Of a DNA stretch of 34,863 nucleotides, positions 7,497-15,286 are shown one piece after another; the stretch's first letter is position 1, and each line of letters opens with the position of its first letter. The notes under the pieces are model-generated. The model saw only the letters and a program-made list of their open reading frames with translations. It was not told where the DNA came from and ran no database searches. Origin of the DNA: Desulfamplus magnetovallimortis (GTDB taxonomy: Bacteria > Desulfobacterota > Desulfobacteria > Desulfobacterales > Desulfobacteraceae); NCBI RefSeq assembly GCF_900170035.1, contig NZ_LT828545.1:41366-76228 (forward strand). The letters are read 5' to 3'. The position numbers and the translations under genes are program-made.

Positions 7497-9587
7497 TTAT
7501 GCGTTGTATGATTCCTTTATGGAATTGTCCGGATTGTAGCATGTCCTGCAGCAGTTAAGGCAACGGTTTGCCTCTTTAAGAGCCTGGTCTTCCGGAAGTA
7601 CCTGATCCACTTCTACAAAAGATCGGATACGTTCATTGACAGGAAGCTCAGGCATCTCTGCCCGTTTTATCGGTGTTATACCAGGAACGGTTGTAAATAC
7701 AGACTCTTCAATCCTTTTACCCTGGAGAGATTTTTCCACAGGAGCAATTTTTTCACCCTTGAGGAAAAGATCAATGGATCTGGCAGCCCTTCTGCCTGCT
7801 CCAATTGCATCAACAACAAGAGCAGGGCCTGTTGCAGAGTCCCCACCTGTAAAAATATAGGGGATGGATGTTGACTGGAGGGTTGTCGGGTCATTGTCAA
7901 TGGTACTCCACCTTGTCAGGGCAAGTTCTGAGATTCGTCTTGAGGTCTCTTCCTTGAAACTTGCATCTGGTGATTGACCAATGGCAGTTACAATGGTGTC
8001 AACTTCAAGAAGGGTTTCAGAACCTTCAACAGGAACAGGTCTTCTTCTGCCACTTGCATCAGGCTCACCAAGTTCCATTTTAAGGTACTCAAGGTGAGTT
8101 ACATGGCCATCTTCATTGCCGATAACCTTTGAAGGTGCAGCAAGAAAAACAAAGTCAATGCCTTCATGTTCAGATGCTACAATTTCAACTTCATTTGCAG
8201 GCATCTCTTTACGTGTACGGCGATATACCATGTAAACCTTTTCAAGGCCAAGCCGCAGCATGGTTCTTGCGCAATCAACAGCAGTGTTACCACCGCCGAT
8301 TACACATGCTTTTTTCCCAAGAGGCAGTTTTTCTCCCATTGCAGAGCGGGAAAGGAAGTTGATTCCGTTATAGCATCCTTCAAGGTGGTCTCCTGGAATA
8401 CCAAGTGAGTAGTCTTTCCAGGCTCCAATACCCATAAATATTGCTTCATAGCCTGCTGTGACAAGTGAGCCTAAACCAAAATCGCTTCCAAATCTTACGT
8501 TGGTACGGGTTTCAATGCCAAGCCTTGTAATCCCTTCAATTTCCCAGTCAAGTACTTTTTTGGGAAGACGGTATTCAGGAATTCCGTAGCGGATAATTCC
8601 TCCAAGTTTTGGCATGGCTTCAAAAATTGTGACCTGATATCCAACACGTCTCAGAAAATATGCGCAGCTCAAACCGGCAGGACCACCGCCGATTACAGCA
8701 ACTTTTCTGCCATTATCAGGTGCACATGTGATGGGAACCCTTGTGCCAGATTTCATCTCGTAATCAGCAGCAAAGCGTTTAAGCTGATTGATGGATACAG
8801 GTTCATCTTCAATGCCTCTTCTGCATAGATCCTCACATGGATGTGGGCAGACCCTTCCGCATGAGAGAAGAAGCGGATTTCTCATACGAATGGTCTGTAC
8901 GGCAGCTTTGTAGTCACCCTTTTTGATCTCACTTATATATTTGGGGATATTGATTTCAGCAGGACATCTCTGGGAACATGGTGCAAGTGCTCCATCTTCC
9001 TGGTTGAAATCAAGCAGCCTTTCAGACATTGTCTTTACCTGTAAAATATTTTTTGGACAGGCATTTTCACAGGCACCACAGCCTACGCACATGGTTTCAT
9101 CCACAACAGGAAAACCATCTGGCCCCATATCAATGGCACCAAAATTACATGCTTTTATGCAATCACCAAGGCCAAGACAGCCTACACCGCACTCTCGCTG
9201 GCCTCCGAAAAAACCTGAAAGTGCCTTGCAGGAGTTCACTCCAAGGTAGTGGTATTTTGTATTAGCCCTTTTTCCGCCATCGCAGGTATTGTTGGCAACC
9301 CTGGGTGATGCACTTCCGGGATCCATGCCCATTATCTCTGCAACTTTTGCAATACCTTCAGAGCTTGAAATGACACATACACTGGGAGATGCCTTGCCTT
9401 CAACAACAGCCTGGGCAGCAGAACTGCAACCGGCATAGCCGCATCCACCACAGTTTGCCCCTGCAAGGTTGTTTTCAATCATGGCGATCCTGGGATCTTC
9501 ATAGACATAGAATATTTTGGACGCATAGCTGAGGACAAGGCCGCATACACCGCCTATGCCCAGCATAAATAGTAGCGCTTCCGTCAT
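7497..9587 (-). CDS. rnfB: RnfB fused to a GltD/NfnB-like FAD-NAD(P)H oxidoreductase
   Basis: This 696-residue protein is far longer than ordinary RnfB (about 190-330 residues). Residues 1-30 hold the membrane anchor. NCGGCGYAGC with a later cysteine (C46, C49, C54, C71) is the RnfB cluster motif. Two [4Fe-4S] ferredoxin motifs follow (about 133-147 and 167-177, CVGCGACENACP). From ~195 onward comes a complete glutamate-synthase small-subunit-like module: cysteine-rich CSQRCPAEINIP and CGRVCPHPCEDLC, the FAD motif AVIGGGPAGLS (~297-307), a second nucleotide motif VIGGGNTAVDCA, then the closing FAD segment IFTGGDSATGP. A further CLNCCRTC motif lies near the end. RnfB normally accepts electrons from ferredoxin; the extra module should bind FAD and NAD(P)H. 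The start has GAGG 5 bases upstream. rnfA lies 27 bp upstream. This is the last gene of rnfCDGEAB. Confidence 0.95.
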   Translation of the reverse strand: MTEALLFMLGIGGVCGLVLSYASKIFYVYEDPRIAMIENNLAGANCGGCGYAGCSSAAQAVVEGKASPSVCVISSSEGIAKVAEIMGMDPGSASPRVANNTCDGGKRANTKYHYLGVNSCKALSGFFGGQRECGVGCLGLGDCIKACNFGAIDMGPDGFPVVDETMCVGCGACENACPKNILQVKTMSERLLDFNQEDGALAPCSQRCPAEINIPKYISEIKKGDYKAAVQTIRMRNPLLLSCGRVCPHPCEDLCRRGIEDEPVSINQLKRFAADYEMKSGTRVPITCAPDNGRKVAVIGGGPAGLSCAYFLRRVGYQVTIFEAMPKLGGIIRYGIPEYRLPKKVLDWEIEGITRLGIETRTNVRFGSDFGLGSLVTAGYEAIFMGIGAWKDYSLGIPGDHLEGCYNGINFLSRSAMGEKLPLGKKACVIGGGNTAVDCARTMLRLGLEKVYMVYRRTRKEMPANEVEIVASEHEGIDFVFLAAPSKVIGNEDGHVTHLEYLKMELGEPDASGRRRPVPVEGSETLLEVDTIVTAIGQSPDASFKEETSRRISELALTRWSTIDNDPTTLQSTSIPYIFTGGDSATGPALVVDAIGAGRRAARSIDLFLKGEKIAPVEKSLQGKRIEESVFTTVPGITPIKRAEMPELPVNERIRSFVEVDQVLPEDQALKEANRCLNCCRTCYNPDNSIKESYNA

Positions 9588-9614: not shown

Positions 9615-10190
9615 TTAAACCATCCCTTTAAATGCAAAAAACGAGAGTGCAATCATTCCGGCGGTTACAAGACCTATGGATGTATCCTGGAGAGGTTTTG
9701 GCACTCTTGCAATATTTATCCTCTCTCTTATGCCTGCAAACAGGATCAGGGCAAGGCCGAATCCAACAGCATAGCTGAAAGAGGATACAAGGGACTGCAT
9801 AAATGTATATTCTTCGTTTATGTTGATAAGGCAGACACCCATTACAGCACAGTTGGTTGTAATGAGAGGAAGAAAAATACCAAGGCCAGCATAAAGGGCT
9901 GGAATGCTTTTTTTAAGGAACATCTCAACAAACTGAACAAGTGATGCAATGATCAGAATAAATGAGAGGGTTCGAAGAAACTCTATGTCAAGGGGTTTCA
10001 GAAGGTATGTATCTGTGATCCATGTAATGATACCGGCCATGACAAGAACAAAAACAACAGCCATTGCCATTCCTGTGGCAGTTTCCATCTTTTTGGAAGT
10101 GCCGAGAAATGGGCAGTTGCCAAGAAACTGCGCCAGGAGAATGTTATTGACAAAAATGCAGCTTATGGCAAGAACGAAATAGTCACCCAT
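9615..10190 (-). CDS. rnfA: Rnf complex membrane subunit RnfA
   Basis: It is a hydrophobic 191-residue protein with about six membrane segments, the usual RnfA length. The conserved half-site cysteines LGNCPFLG (about residue 25) and TTNCAVMG (about 113) are present; in Rnf/Nqr complexes the A/D(E) pair bind an intramembrane iron-sulfur cluster. The sequence is paralogous to RnfE upstream. AGGAG lies about 9 bases before the ATG. It sits 15 bp downstream of rnfE and 27 bp upstream of rnfB in the operon. Confidence 0.95.
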   Translation of the reverse strand: MGDYFVLAISCIFVNNILLAQFLGNCPFLGTSKKMETATGMAMAVVFVLVMAGIITWITDTYLLKPLDIEFLRTLSFILIIASLVQFVEMFLKKSIPALYAGLGIFLPLITTNCAVMGVCLININEEYTFMQSLVSSFSYAVGFGLALILFAGIRERINIARVPKPLQDTSIGLVTAGMIALSFFAFKGMV

Positions 10191-10205: not shown

Positions 10206-10799
10206 TTATTTCTTACCGATAAGGTTCATTAAACACAGCAGCAGTCCAAGACATACAAAGGCACCTGGTGCTTCAACCATGAAAGTAAAAGGCTGAAAGT
10301 CAGGTCCAAAAACCGGATTGCCCAGAATGGTACCGTCTCCAAGACACTCCCGAACAGCTCCAAGGGCTCCCAGGGATAATGTAAAACCTATGCCCATGCC
10401 AAGGCCATCGGCGATTGCCATGTGGGGAGGATTTTTGCTGGCAAATGCTTCTGCACGGCCAAGAACAATGCAGTTAACAACGATCAGGGGAATAAATATA
10501 CCAAGTTTCAGGAATAGAGGATAGGTATATGCCTGCATCATAAGTTCAACGACCGTTACAAAGGTCGCTATTATAACAATAAAACAGGCAATCCTGACTT
10601 TAGCTGGTATGATATCTCTTAGAAGTGAAACAAGAAAGTTGGAACAGACAAGTACAAAGGTAGTTGCAATACCCATTCCAATCCCGTTTTCAACAGATTT
10701 TGTTACCGCAAGAACAGGACAGAGACCCAGAACCAGGCGAAACGGGGGAACTTCTGCCCAAAGTCCCTTGGTAAACTCTTTAACTATGGATTGTGCCAT
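10206..10799 (-). CDS. rnfE: Rnf complex membrane subunit RnfE
   Basis: It is a 197-residue integral membrane protein when started at the ATG at 10799 (MAQSIVKEFTKGLW), which has AGGAGA about 9 bases upstream; the longer start at 10844 would overlap rnfG. LGLCPVLAVT and VVNCIVLGRAEAFASKNPP are the RnfE/RnfA-family signatures with the two conserved cysteines. It pairs with RnfA in the membrane core, on the route between the cytoplasmic iron-sulfur subunits and the periplasmic flavin subunit. It starts 13 bp after the rnfG stop. Confidence 0.95.
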   Translation of the reverse strand: MAQSIVKEFTKGLWAEVPPFRLVLGLCPVLAVTKSVENGIGMGIATTFVLVCSNFLVSLLRDIIPAKVRIACFIVIIATFVTVVELMMQAYTYPLFLKLGIFIPLIVVNCIVLGRAEAFASKNPPHMAIADGLGMGIGFTLSLGALGAVRECLGDGTILGNPVFGPDFQPFTFMVEAPGAFVCLGLLLCLMNLIGKK

Positions 10800-10812
10800 A
10801 ATATAATATCTC

Positions 10813-11406
10813 CTAATTGGCCATCTGTGCGGTCTGTTTTTCAATCTCTGGTTTTAGGCGGGTATATAACTCCTGGGCCTTCTGAGCCGCAAGGCAAACC
10901 CCAACCGATGTGATGGTCGCTCCGGACATTGCATCTATCTCTCCGCCGCTTTTCTTTATCCCGAGGTTTTTATCCATTGTCTTTCCGGCAAACTGGGAGA
11001 CAAACTTTGGATCGTCTTTGGCTCTGGAGCCAAGGCCCGGGGTTTCACTGTGAGTTGTAACTGCAACGCCAATAATCTCGTCCGACTCAATATTTACACC
11101 CACCATGAGACCGATATCTCCACCAAAGCCCTTACCTTTTGTCTCAAAGGTGATAGCTTTGGGGGTGCCATCATATTTGCCAACAAAAAAAGTGACCTCT
11201 TCTTCCTGGTCCATGATTTTGAATCTGTCCTGAAGAGGATCGTTTGATACATCACTCAGGATGAGTTTGATGGCAGGTGCTTTCTGGAATTTGAGTACCT
11301 GATTTTCAATTTTATCGTTGGTTCCTGTTTTGACAGCAGCCAGCATGCCTCCTGAAAAGGCGCTCAGGACTGTCAGAACAACAACCATGCTTATCATTTC
11401 ACGCAT
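10813..11406 (-). CDS. rnfG: Rnf complex FMN-carrying subunit RnfG
   Basis: The product is 197 residues with one N-terminal membrane segment (MISMVVVLTVLSAFSGGMLA) and a periplasmic FMN-binding domain. HSETPGLGSRAKDDP and IDAMSGATITSVGV match the family; the Thr in SGATIT is the residue expected to receive FMN from ApbE, whose gene lies downstream of the operon. It overlaps the end of rnfD by 8 bp, indicating translational coupling. Confidence 0.95.
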   Translation of the reverse strand: MREMISMVVVLTVLSAFSGGMLAAVKTGTNDKIENQVLKFQKAPAIKLILSDVSNDPLQDRFKIMDQEEEVTFFVGKYDGTPKAITFETKGKGFGGDIGLMVGVNIESDEIIGVAVTTHSETPGLGSRAKDDPKFVSQFAGKTMDKNLGIKKSGGEIDAMSGATITSVGVCLAAQKAQELYTRLKPEIEKQTAQMAN

Positions 11407-12367
11407 TGTTCACACCCTTTCCCAACGCTTTTGGCCTTATGTTGTCAATTAGCGGATTAATAAGATTAATCAGCAGGATAGCAAAGAACGTACCATCAGG
11501 ATAGGCACCGATGTTTCTGATCAGAATGGTCATCAAGCCTCCCATGGCTCCATATATAAACATGGGAATGGTGTGTACCGGGGATGATGAAGAGTCTGTG
11601 GCAAGAAAAAATGCGCCGAGAAGCGTATATCCTGTAAAAAGATGAAACATGGGTTCAGCATATTTTCCCGGGTCAACCATGTTAAATAGTCCTGCTGTTA
11701 CAAGAATACCTGCAATGTATGAAACGGAAATTTCCCATCTGATGAATCCGCGCAGTATAAGGTATATCCCGCCTAAGATGATCCCTATTCCAGATACAGC
11801 TCCAATTGCACCAACCTCTTTTCCGATCACAAGATCTGATAGGTTGAAAAGTCCCGTGGCTGAGACTCCCTGATGTTTCAGGGCAGCAAGGGGGGCAAGG
11901 GCAGTAAAATTGAAATCATAACTGAGAAGGGTTGCATCAAAGTCAAAAAAGGTGTGCCATGAAACCATCAGTATTGTGGCACCGATAACAGCAGGGCTGA
12001 AGGGATTGCCGCCAATTCCTCCAAAAACCTGCTGACCAACAACAACGGCAACGAATGTACCGATGATGACCGCCCACCATGGGATTGTTGCAGGAAACAT
12101 CATGCCCAGAAGCATGCCTATGACCCCTGCATTGTAGTCATTCAGGGTTATAGGACGTTTTGAAATAAAGTTAAAAAGTGCTTCCCAGGCCATGGCAGTT
12201 GAGATGGAGAGACATATAACACCAAGAGCAGGCATGCCGAACTGAAAAATCCCGAAAAGAACTGCAGGAAGGGCAGCCGCCATTATATTGAGGTTCATGC
12301 ATTTGATGCTGCTTCCATCGTGCCAGAACGGGGCATGGGATACTGTGAATTTGTTCTGCTTATGCAT
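11399..12367 (-). CDS. rnfD: Rnf complex membrane subunit RnfD
   Basis: It is a 322-residue polytopic protein of the NqrB/RnfD family. The ATG at 12367 (MHKQNKFTVSHAPFWHDG) has GGAGG 7 bases upstream and is preferred over the frame start at 12385. SHAPFWHDG at the N-terminus, GGNPFSPAVIGATILM and the segment HQGVSATGLFNL are typical; the Thr in VSAT corresponds by position to the flavinylated Thr of the family. It overlaps the rnfC 3' end and the rnfG start by 8 bp each. Confidence 0.95.
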   Translation of the reverse strand: MHKQNKFTVSHAPFWHDGSSIKCMNLNIMAAALPAVLFGIFQFGMPALGVICLSISTAMAWEALFNFISKRPITLNDYNAGVIGMLLGMMFPATIPWWAVIIGTFVAVVVGQQVFGGIGGNPFSPAVIGATILMVSWHTFFDFDATLLSYDFNFTALAPLAALKHQGVSATGLFNLSDLVIGKEVGAIGAVSGIGIILGGIYLILRGFIRWEISVSYIAGILVTAGLFNMVDPGKYAEPMFHLFTGYTLLGAFFLATDSSSSPVHTIPMFIYGAMGGLMTILIRNIGAYPDGTFFAILLINLINPLIDNIRPKALGKGVNNA

Positions 12368-13653
12368 TTTCAGCCTCCGTTTCAATCTCTGATTCCAGCT
12401 TTATAAGTTCCCGTTTCCCAAGACGGATATACTGGAATATTGGGATGTTTGCTCTGCATACATAGCTGCAGAGGCCGCACTCAATACAGGAAAGCATGTC
12501 GCAACTATCAGCAGCATCCTGATAAAGATTGGCTTCAAGGTAGCGAACAAGCAGGTTTACAGGAACATTGGCAGGACATATCCTTATGCAGTTACCGCAG
12601 TTGATACATGGATAGTCGGAGATTACCGGTATCTCGCTGCTTGCCTGGATAATGATTGTGTCCATATCCGGCAATACAGGGTGATAAAGGGTATAAGCAG
12701 AGATTCCCCTTAGAGGGCCGCCTATAATTACCCTGTCTTTTTCAACTGCCTCAATACCAAGCTGGGTTAAAATTCTGTGAATCGGGGTTCCTATGGTTGC
12801 TTTTACCCTTGTGGTGTTACCATTTTTATCTGTTACACCAATGAACTTTTCATAAACAGGTTCTTTGCGGTCATAGGAGTCAACAAGTGCAAAAACAGCC
12901 TCGGCTGAAAGAAAACAGATTCCTGTATCCTCAAATGATTTGCGAGGTGCCTTGAAAATCCCCAGATGCTTTTGAATAATTATTTCAGGCAAAGAGTCAG
13001 TATAGTCACAGGATATCTTTATGAGGTTCATTCCTCCGAATGCCCCAAGTTTTGACATGCTTTCAGGCAGGGCAATCATAATATCCTGAATACCTGTCAG
13101 GCGTTTGAGAAGGTCAACTCCTTTGCCAATATTATCTCTGAATCTTGTCATAACAAACTGTTGGGTTGTTGAAACAAGATCAGCATCAACGGCATTGATA
13201 ATAATTTTTGTGACCCTGCATCCTGGATCGGCAAGCAGTTTCAAAGGTGGGTTGCCTGGGATGCCCTGTAGATATTCTGCCGCACTTGCGATATCCGGAG
13301 TATCTGCATATCCGGCAAATTCATTGTCGCCTTCCTGGTTTGTGTTTGTTTCCAGGGTCAGACAGGTAACGGCCTCGCCTGTATTTCCTGTTACAGGAGA
13401 GATGTTTGTGATGGTTCCGGAAACAGGCATTGTAACATACTCACTGCTTTCTTTGTAGAGAAAGAGTCTGTCTCCCTTTTTGACCACCGCACCTTTTTTT
13501 TACAAGGGATTCTCTGGTGCTGTCCAATGGTTCGTTCAGCAGTAGAATCATCCTGGGTGGTACTGGAATGGCCTCCGGCTCTTTTGGACCTGATTCAACA
13601 AGGTCGCATTTGAGCTTTGGTTCAGTTAATCCGATAAATGATCTCTTAATCAT
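12360..13653 (-). CDS. rnfC: Rnf complex subunit RnfC, frameshifted and lacking the usual NADH/FMN motifs
   Basis: The N-terminal piece (13441-13653, MIKRSFIGLTEPKLKCDLVE) and the main piece (12360-13487) belong to one gene of about 430 residues. They are separated by a run of eight A (T run at 13494-13501 on the plus strand); removing one A joins SLVKK to GAVVKKGDRLFLYK. The barrel-sandwich segment (VVKKGDRLFL...MPVSGTITNIS) and two C-terminal cluster motifs (CINCGNCIRICP, CIECGLCSYVC) are clear. In the middle, where RnfC/NuoF proteins carry a GxGGAGFPT loop and an ECEPY-like acidic patch for FMN/NADH, this protein reads LQGIPGNPPLKLLADPG and NAVDADLVSTT. RnfC is normally the NADH-reactive subunit; here that role is doubtful. 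It is the first rnf gene. Confidence 0.92.
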
Positions 13654-13988: not shown

Positions 13989-14354
13989 TTAGATAGCATG
14001 GCATGAATTACATTCCACAGGACCTGCGCCCATATCCTGATGGCAGCCTGTACACTGTGCATGGAATGCGTCCGTTCTGCCCGGCATTGATTCATCACCG
14101 GTGGCCTCGTGACATTCACTGCAGTTATAGATCTCGTCATCTTCAATATTGTGATGACAATCCAAGCAGGAAACATCATACTCTGTGTTATGCACGCCGT
14201 GGGTAAAAAGAACCTTGCCTGCGGCATTGTGAAACATTAACCTGACAGGTTCATTTGGTGCCGGTGGCGGAAATGCTGCATAACATGTAAGACCAGTAAT
14301 AAAAAGTACAACTGCGAGCAGAGAAGCGATTTGTAAATCTTTTTTCGAGGTCAT
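13989..14354 (-). CDS. Periplasmic tetraheme cytochrome c (class III-like) heading the rnf cluster
   Basis: It is a 121-residue exported protein with four CxxCH heme sites: CLDCH, CSECH, CTGCH and CNSCH. An N-terminal signal peptide (IASLLAVVLFITGLTCYA) directs it to the periplasm. VLFTHGVHN before the first site resembles the VxFxHxxH signature of the cytochrome c3/c7 fold, where the histidines serve as sixth heme ligands. I chose the ATG at 14354, which has GAGGG 8 bases upstream; an ATG at 14369 is less well spaced. It is on the same strand as, and 335 bp upstream of, rnfC. Multiheme cytochromes next to rnf are known in sulfate reducers and in Methanosarcina acetivorans, where electrons leave Rnf through the cytochrome; the same role is inferred here. 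Confidence 0.93.
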   Translation of the reverse strand: MTSKKDLQIASLLAVVLFITGLTCYAAFPPPAPNEPVRLMFHNAAGKVLFTHGVHNTEYDVSCLDCHHNIEDDEIYNCSECHEATGDESMPGRTDAFHAQCTGCHQDMGAGPVECNSCHAI

Positions 14355-14369
14355 GGTTATTGCCCTCAT

Positions 14370-14830: not shown

Positions 14831-15286
14831 TCAGGAGGGCTGGCAGTTTTCGTTCTTTTTTGTGAATCGCATGAGAAAAGGTTGAAACTCTTTTTTCTTT
14901 GCCCAGGCGTTGTTAATGAGTCGGATAACTCCAAATGAAACCGCAAAACACAAAGCGCCTGAAAGCAGAGATGTGATGGAGGGGTCTGTGTTGATTTTTG
15001 CAGATAAGGTATCACCCGTTGCTGCACCTGCAATAAGCATAAGCACGGGAAATATATATAGAAGGAATGTTATTTTAAGAAGAGGGGCTGTTTTAAATCC
15101 AACAATTACACGGTCTCCGATGGATGCATTAAGGGTGTTCTCAAGCTGAATGGTCATCTCCTGAGCTTTTGAAGCCTCCTGGCAGGAATCTTTGGACTCA
15201 CATGATTCGCATGATTTTGATCTAACTGTTTTCACCCATGCATTTGCACCGATGGTGCCGGTTATTACCCCTTCTTTAGTCACCAT
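14831..15286 (-). CDS. RseC/MucC family membrane protein
   Basis: It is a 151-residue protein with an N-terminal cysteine cluster (KSCESCESKDSCQE, ~24-37), a small beta domain (ENTLNASIGDRVIVGF), then two membrane segments (ITFLLYIFPVLMLIAGAA and SLLSGALCFAVSFGVIRLI). This is the RseC layout. RseC is linked in E. coli to the SoxR-reducing system, which includes the Rnf-like Rsx complex, so its place upstream of rnf on the same strand fits a redox role. It lies ~480 bp from the cytochrome gene, so it is not clearly in the same operon. The two-hairpin repeat lies just upstream. Confidence 0.88.
   Translation of the reverse strand: MVTKEGVITGTIGANAWVKTVRSKSCESCESKDSCQEASKAQEMTIQLENTLNASIGDRVIVGFKTAPLLKITFLLYIFPVLMLIAGAATGDTLSAKINTDPSITSLLSGALCFAVSFGVIRLINNAWAKKKEFQPFLMRFTKKNENCQPS

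Follow-up and report, generated by a model that had tools for sequence, protein, structure and literature searches.

The operon described here belongs to an already known system, 'Rnf2', which combines a large RnfB carrying NAD-binding sites with an RnfC lacking the NADH domain, and what our analysis adds is a parallel loss of the flavin site of RnfD and a proposed order of events in which the RnfC loss precedes the RnfB fusion. The window, i.e. the whole stretch of 34,863 nucleotides of Desulfamplus magnetovallimortis DNA that was analysed, carries the operon on its minus strand, where open reading frames and profile searches give the gene order cytochrome c, rnfC, rnfD, rnfG, rnfE, rnfA and large rnfB. 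The gene upstream of rnfC (13989-14369) encodes a small c-type cytochrome of 126 aa with four CxxCH motifs and a hydrophobic N-terminal stretch. It is followed by RnfC, with a main open frame of 375 aa (12360-13487) and its N-terminal ~50 codons in a different frame (13502-13653), by RnfD (11399-12385), RnfG of the DVU2794 type (10813-11406), RnfE (10206-10844) and RnfA (9615-10190), and finally by RnfB (7497-9587). Upstream of the cytochrome gene, positions 14831-15286 encode a small cysteine-containing protein, which we take to resemble RseC/MucC; similar frames lie ahead of the operon in L061-L063.

The window RnfC aligns with the solved chains 9eri_C, 7zc6_C and 8ahx_C across both the glycine-rich loop and the ECEPY patch, and the alignment reveals that its FMN/NADH site is absent. 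The glycine-rich FMN loop is replaced by LQGIPGNPPLKLL (13233-13271, minus strand like all features of the operon) and is also shortened relative to the solved chains and the organism's own canonical RnfC, the ECEPY patch is replaced by VDADLVSTT (13164-13190), and a third FMN-side stretch, YPQGxEKQLI, is replaced by YTDSLPEIII (12975-13004). The second RnfC of the same organism (L001/L058), which is canonical, has GIVGLGGAAFPT and NGCECEPYL at the first two of these places. The preliminary description had put the loss of the NADH/FMN motifs at 13149-13268, and both replaced motifs fall within or at the edge of that interval; the comparison with the solved chains and with the second RnfC bears out the loss and extends it to the third stretch. 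Its statement that both C-terminal cluster motifs are present is likewise correct (two CxxCxxCxxxC 4Fe-4S motifs, 12576-12608 and 12456-12488), and these motifs are kept in 157/157 RnfC examined, canonical and site-less together, site-less being our term for RnfC without the FMN/NADH motifs. On TIGR01945 the window RnfC scores 153 bits, below the cut-off of 246. Since site-less RnfC of other kinds can exceed this cut-off (352 bits), the motif is the better test. In Pfam at E 0.001 only 4Fe-4S domains were found, and Complex1_51K, SLBB and RnfC_N gave no match, the result for RnfC_N being a weak negative because the searched frame lacked the first ~50 residues.

The window rnfC is interrupted by a frame change adjoining a run of eight T (13494-13501). 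In the other 79 relatives compared the gene is a single open frame of at least 422 aa, and the frame change is therefore likely to be recent or to stem from a sequencing error. The preliminary description was right that the frame change is real and yet the motif stretch lies in a clean frame; the replacement is moreover common to the relatives, which rules against a frame artefact as the cause of the motif loss. Pseudogene decay was rejected in view of the open frames of the 79 relatives and of the retained FeS motifs. Of the window-type RnfC, i.e. that of the window plus those of 79 relatives from its order, 80/80 lack both motifs, and these proteins have a conserved pattern of their own, PGxP together with DxDLxxxT, with few exceptions; this shared loss and pattern show that the replacement is not due to chance. 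The AF2 model built for the window RnfC with 43 sequences (pLDDT 89.3, pTM 0.88) has the canonical RnfC chains as its nearest solved folds, with NqrA next, and superimposes on the A. woodii chain 9eri_C with a TM of 0.80 on the query and an rmsd of 4.4 Å. The model thus suggests that the fold was kept while the motifs were lost.

A search with the window RnfC gave a match at E 0.001, in some cases a weak one, in 187 of 193 relatives. Eighty-one loci were scored, namely the window, 79 operon loci at the order level and the organism's own Rnf1 locus, and 80 of them hold the window-type RnfC. Among the best 80 of 459 relatives, holders of site-less RnfC include by name Desulfobacula, Desulfobacter, Desulfonema, Desulfosarcina, Desulfoluna, Ca. 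Desulfaltia, Desulfocarbo and Desulfarculus; at least one Spirochaetes and at least three Aminicenantes assemblies represent other phyla. The preliminary description had raised the possibility of a second, canonical RnfC that serves the complex. Such a protein is indeed present in the genome, where it has its own Rnf cluster (D, G, E, A and an unfused B), but supply of a canonical RnfC in trans is not general: among 20 near-closed genomes (at most 10 contigs) that match the window RnfC, 14 encode an RnfC above the TIGR01945 cut-off, whereas the other 6 lack one. Five of these six were checked and are site-less; the sixth is G036. Over all 193 relatives, with the eight best candidates scored per genome, 64 have an RnfC above the cut-off, and site-less RnfC of other kinds account for some of these (e.g. 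G115 and G148). Twelve further loci (L338-L341, L346, L347 and L349-L354) encode stand-alone RnfC-like proteins that have the GxGGAG loop but a single FeS motif. No further Rnf subunit was found at these loci, and they were excluded as another family.

The window RnfB has 696 aa, in which an RnfB N-terminal half (NF005503, 5.5e-48; FeS domain match in Pfam, 8.7e-11) is joined to a GltD/NfnB-like FAD/NADPH module running from ~9017 downwards (Pyr_redox_2, 1.7e-31). In alignments the fused half matches Nfn, Stn and GltD chains, and its FAD and NADPH-type motifs are intact (GGGPAG, GGGNTA and YRRTRKEMPA). Typing covered 136 long fusion sequences, some of them duplicates, with type I defined by at least 48% in the GltD half. 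The YRR...EMP motif is kept in 105 of the 106 type I fusions, which include the window, and in none of the 30 type II fusions, where this NADPH motif is missing, the second nucleotide site is degraded and in most cases a GGGxEGL FAD-like motif is left. Type II fusions occur within Rnf operons (L191-L194, L196-L198, L200, L201, L203, L245, L295 and L298), and such operons have an NAD(P)H motif in neither RnfC nor RnfB. The organism itself has, on contig C12, a type II RnfB-GltD fusion that stands alone and lacks the NADPH motif (L207, 5369-7717), near a molybdopterin oxidoreductase split across two neighbouring frames. In L186 (3180-8267) a type II fusion adjoins NuoE- and NuoF-like genes.

Fusion and RnfC state were compared in 230 loci from two collections that share ten genomes (236 RnfC rows, 220 distinct sequences). 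With canonical RnfC (n = 70) RnfB is fused in 0 loci, unfused in 55 and not seen in 15; with site-less RnfC (n = 160) there are 91 type I fusions, 16 type II fusions, 14 unfused RnfB and 39 loci with none seen. Every locus with a fused RnfB thus has a site-less RnfC (107/107), the two genes being co-stranded in 106 of them (the exception is L204). The preliminary description had asked whether all genomes with the fusion have the degenerate RnfC, and they do in these loci; the reverse fails, since ordinary RnfB, or no rnfB at all, can likewise accompany a site-less RnfC. From the 14 unfused cases we dropped L100 and L241, which are cut by contig ends, as well as L069, L264 (both from one genome) and L290, in all three of which RnfB is on the opposite strand; the nine that remain have an uncut RnfB on the rnfC strand (L167, L188, L238-L240, L244, L256, L266 and L299). 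Another 20 loci comprise the 12 of the other family, one borderline case whose loop is partly kept (L357, left out of all counts) and seven with site-less RnfC and unfused, co-stranded RnfB, namely L348, L355, L356 and L342-L345, the last four of which have a ten-heme cytochrome.

Within the 80 window-type loci a fused RnfB is present in 59, and some of the 21 without a fusion end at contig ends. When the 21 genomes concerned were searched with the window fusion, 7 gave a close match (65-70%) and 11 only a distant full-length match (35-40%); for G021, G108 and G145 no full-length fusion was among the matches listed. No rnfB was seen after rnfA in the site-less operons L061, L062, L063, L095, L099, L101, L102, L110 and L113. 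In L105 (7380-7975) two short frames, one RnfB-like and one GltD-like, are likely a decayed fusion.

The loss is not confined to RnfC. Canonical RnfD carries an FMN on a threonine, Thr156 in A. woodii (PMC11889175). In the window RnfD this motif (S/TxATPL) is absent, the sequence being FTALAPLAALK (11876-11908). At the aligned threonine column canonical loci have T in 67/70, with two gaps and one S (a count in a narrower window gave the motif in 57/70), while the 163 RnfD from site-less loci have T in 9, Y in 85 and a gap in 35. The S/TxAT motif is kept among these 163 only in L244 and L256; the later loci L348 and L357 also retain it. The RnfD loss is found together with unfused RnfB as well (L167, L188, L238, L240, L299, L342-L345, L355 and L356). 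RnfD may still bind a flavin non-covalently. The flavin site of RnfG and the cysteines of RnfA and RnfE, by contrast, are kept. The flavinylation motif of RnfG (SGATIT in the window, 10909-10926) was matched in 147/161 site-less systems, the 14 non-matches being ten AGAT/GGAT, one SGST and three cut sequences. The conserved cysteines are present in the window RnfA and RnfE, and in the survey in 148/148 and 147/148 RnfA and in 155/156 and 151/156 RnfE, all misses being gaps. The loci L244, L256 and L348 have changed RnfC loops, a retained RnfD threonine, unfused RnfB and no cytochrome seen, and possibly represent a second, independent change of RnfC. Loss of the RnfD flavin site in Rnf2 was not found in the literature searched, which was mostly non-subscription and included the accessible text of PMC8238504 and PMC10979944; as far as this search reaches, the RnfD loss is new.

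In an RnfC tree (n = 85, motif columns removed) canonical and site-less proteins are split by one branch with an SH-aLRT of 100. In a tree of the RnfB N-domain (n = 89) the 68 fusions, of both types, form one clade (99), in which the cut L241 row, labelled unfused in the RnfC tree, also falls. The unfused RnfB of site-less systems adjoin this clade (94; joined at 91). Outside it are the canonical RnfB, which do not form one clean group; L244, L256 and an odd frame from L151, a second RnfB-like frame with a very long branch, lie among them. Both trees were made by a quick method and contain several long rows. With canonical RnfC as outgroup, RnfC loss precedes the fusion, which is nested inside a single such loss. 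The RnfD state mapped on the RnfC tree requires 3 changes, not 1. The trees and the site-less loci with unfused, co-stranded RnfB give no support to the idea that RnfC lost its site on account of the fusion. The sequence of events would thus be that RnfC and RnfD lost their sites while RnfB was still separate, and that the NADPH module was fused to RnfB afterwards.

An upstream cytochrome with at least three CxxCH motifs was found in 136/160 site-less and in 0/70 canonical loci; the absence is weakly tested in 30 of these 70, which carry only ~1.5 kb of flank, the flanks of the named loci reaching up to 10 kb. No multiheme cytochrome was seen upstream in 24/160 site-less loci, some of them cut by contig ends and others, of the Desulfocarbo/Desulfarculus type, uncut. 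From their gene order and ten-heme cytochrome, L342-L345 appear to be of the D. alaskensis type. In D. alaskensis rnf mutants fail to grow on ethanol, formate and H2, and mutants in the decaheme cytochrome encoded before the rnf operon show no fitness effect on the same three substrates; the authors doubt that Rnf receives electrons from H2 through this cytochrome (PMC4841214).

Taken together, an input arm and RnfG that are kept, RnfD and RnfC flavins that are lost, and a cytochrome that is added fit an exchange of electrons at RnfG. We therefore read the operon as an Rnf2 whose NAD return path is gone and in which RnfG exchanges electrons with a periplasmic cytochrome c, a reading in which our confidence is evenly divided. 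Ferredoxin would deliver electrons to RnfB, as would NADPH through the fused FAD module in the window type; electrons would then pass between RnfB, the RnfA/RnfE cluster and the FMN of RnfG, and their exchange with the periplasmic cytochrome would drive ion export. In the reverse mode an ion gradient may be spent on the reduction of ferredoxin or NADPH. RnfC could be retained as a docking or FeS subunit. The Rnf of M. acetivorans does not use NAD(P), and its RnfG is the proposed electron source for cytochrome c (PMC4023990). The RnfD threonine is likewise missing from two-subunit Nqr/Rnf-like complexes, for which an outward electron flow has been proposed (PMC10979944). Work with D. alaskensis vesicles failed to demonstrate that ferredoxin oxidation with NAD+ reduction is coupled to an ion gradient (PMC4841214). 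Exit at RnfG has points against it: the 4Fe-4S motifs that RnfC retains, the M. acetivorans model with RnfC between RnfB and RnfG, the missing fitness effect in the D. alaskensis cytochrome mutant, where other cytochromes may substitute, the site-less loci without a cytochrome, and the three loci L244, L256 and L348 that retain the RnfD threonine. It is tempting to go further, and more tentatively, and to suppose that the whole return arm, i.e. the RnfD flavin and the FMN/NAD site of RnfC, was lost jointly before the NADPH module was acquired, leaving a pump that couples ferredoxin or NADPH to periplasmic cytochrome c, in the same lineage as L342-L345; we are somewhat inclined to doubt this wider reading. 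The pump would then parallel, in bacteria, the Rnf of M. acetivorans as well as the origin of NQR.

The preliminary description had proposed that NAD(P)H handling moved from RnfC to RnfB, so that the GltD module replaces the RnfC site and the remaining complex is unchanged. Part of this stands, since the RnfC site is lost, the motifs of the window fusion are intact, the NADPH motif being kept in 105/106 window-type fusions, and 0/70 loci with canonical RnfC have the fusion. We nevertheless consider a transfer unlikely: there are 16 site-less loci with a co-stranded, unfused RnfB (the nine and seven named above) and site-less operons with no rnfB after rnfA, type II fusions lack the NADPH motif, the flavin site of RnfD is lost too, and the RnfC loss comes first in the trees. 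Alternatively, RnfC may still conduct electrons through its FeS clusters, either as a wire from RnfB to RnfG/RnfD or to a cytosolic partner that binds at the PGxP/DxDL surface. RnfC keeps both 4Fe-4S motifs, unlike NqrA, which is out of the electron path and has no FeS motifs (PMC12174285); the M. acetivorans model places RnfC between RnfB and RnfG, proposing just such a wire (PMC4023990), and on both grounds RnfC may still carry electrons. The retention of the cluster motifs in 157/157 RnfC, the conservation of the replacement pattern itself and the fold predicted by the model point the same way. Conduction by RnfC is doubtful all the same, as its feed from the covalent flavin of RnfD is lost, the distance between RnfB and RnfC clusters in A. 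woodii exceeds 30 Å (PMC11889175), and no recurring gene was seen in addition to cyt, C, D, G, E, A and B, the systematic search having covered the Rnf proteins and the cytochrome. The retained fold of the model would also be compatible with an RnfC that binds FMN or NADH in the same pocket through other residues, but flavin-less NqrA matches this fold too, none of the three FMN-side stretches is left in canonical form and the loop has become shorter, which makes such a pocket very improbable.

The preliminary description took the arrangement to be undescribed. This does not hold, as Rnf2 has already been reported (PMC5109826 and PMC11887813). In Desulfobacula toluolica, Rnf2 has an RnfB of ~700 aa with NAD-binding sites and an RnfC without the NADH and soluble-ligand domains, the partner of RnfC being stated as still to be identified, and Desulfococcus multivorans, like D. 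autotrophicum, has both Rnf types (PMC5109826). The 2025 account places Rnf2 in the core genome of Desulfobacteraceae, finds it abundant and constitutively formed in six strains, and still has it linking the NADH pool (PMC11887813). A small cytochrome in the D. multivorans cluster and the frequent occurrence beside Rnf1 are also recorded (PMC5109826 and PMC11887813). The window matches the D. toluolica type in the NAD-binding domain of its 696-residue RnfB, in its RnfC without NADH domains and in its cytochrome, and we see no difference from Rnf2; neither the RnfD site nor the order of events nor the type II fusions appear in the accessible text of these two papers. In many Desulfovibrionaceae a 'loss of rnfB', with an FAD-dependent oxidoreductase instead, has been described (PMC11434368), and we suspect that this is the RnfB-GltD fusion under another name.

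From canonical Rnf the window differs in an RnfC below the TIGR01945 cut-off and in the absence of both the FMN/NADH motifs and the RnfD threonine. It shares with the M. acetivorans Rnf a multiheme cytochrome in the operon (PMC4023990) but differs in its RnfC, which scores 95 of 650 bits on the archaeal model NF041837, and in the GltD module on RnfB, of which the accessible text of PMC4023990 makes no mention for M. acetivorans. The likeness to Na+-NQR lies in a flavin-less RnfC homologue combined with an FAD/NAD(P)H module as new input (PMC11889175 and PMC12174285). However, NqrA lacks both FeS clusters, for which the window RnfC has two motifs, the input module is NqrF and not RnfB-GltD, and NQR retains the covalent flavin of NqrB. 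The window module resembles the NADP(H) modules of NfnB, GltD and Stn in its intact FAD and NADPH motifs, but is joined to RnfB in the operon of an ion pump.

Overall, with the flavin sites of both RnfD and RnfC gone, electrons are predicted to leave this complex at RnfG, and the same double loss cautions that not every rnfC gene of a sulfate reducer stands for a ferredoxin:NAD oxidoreductase.
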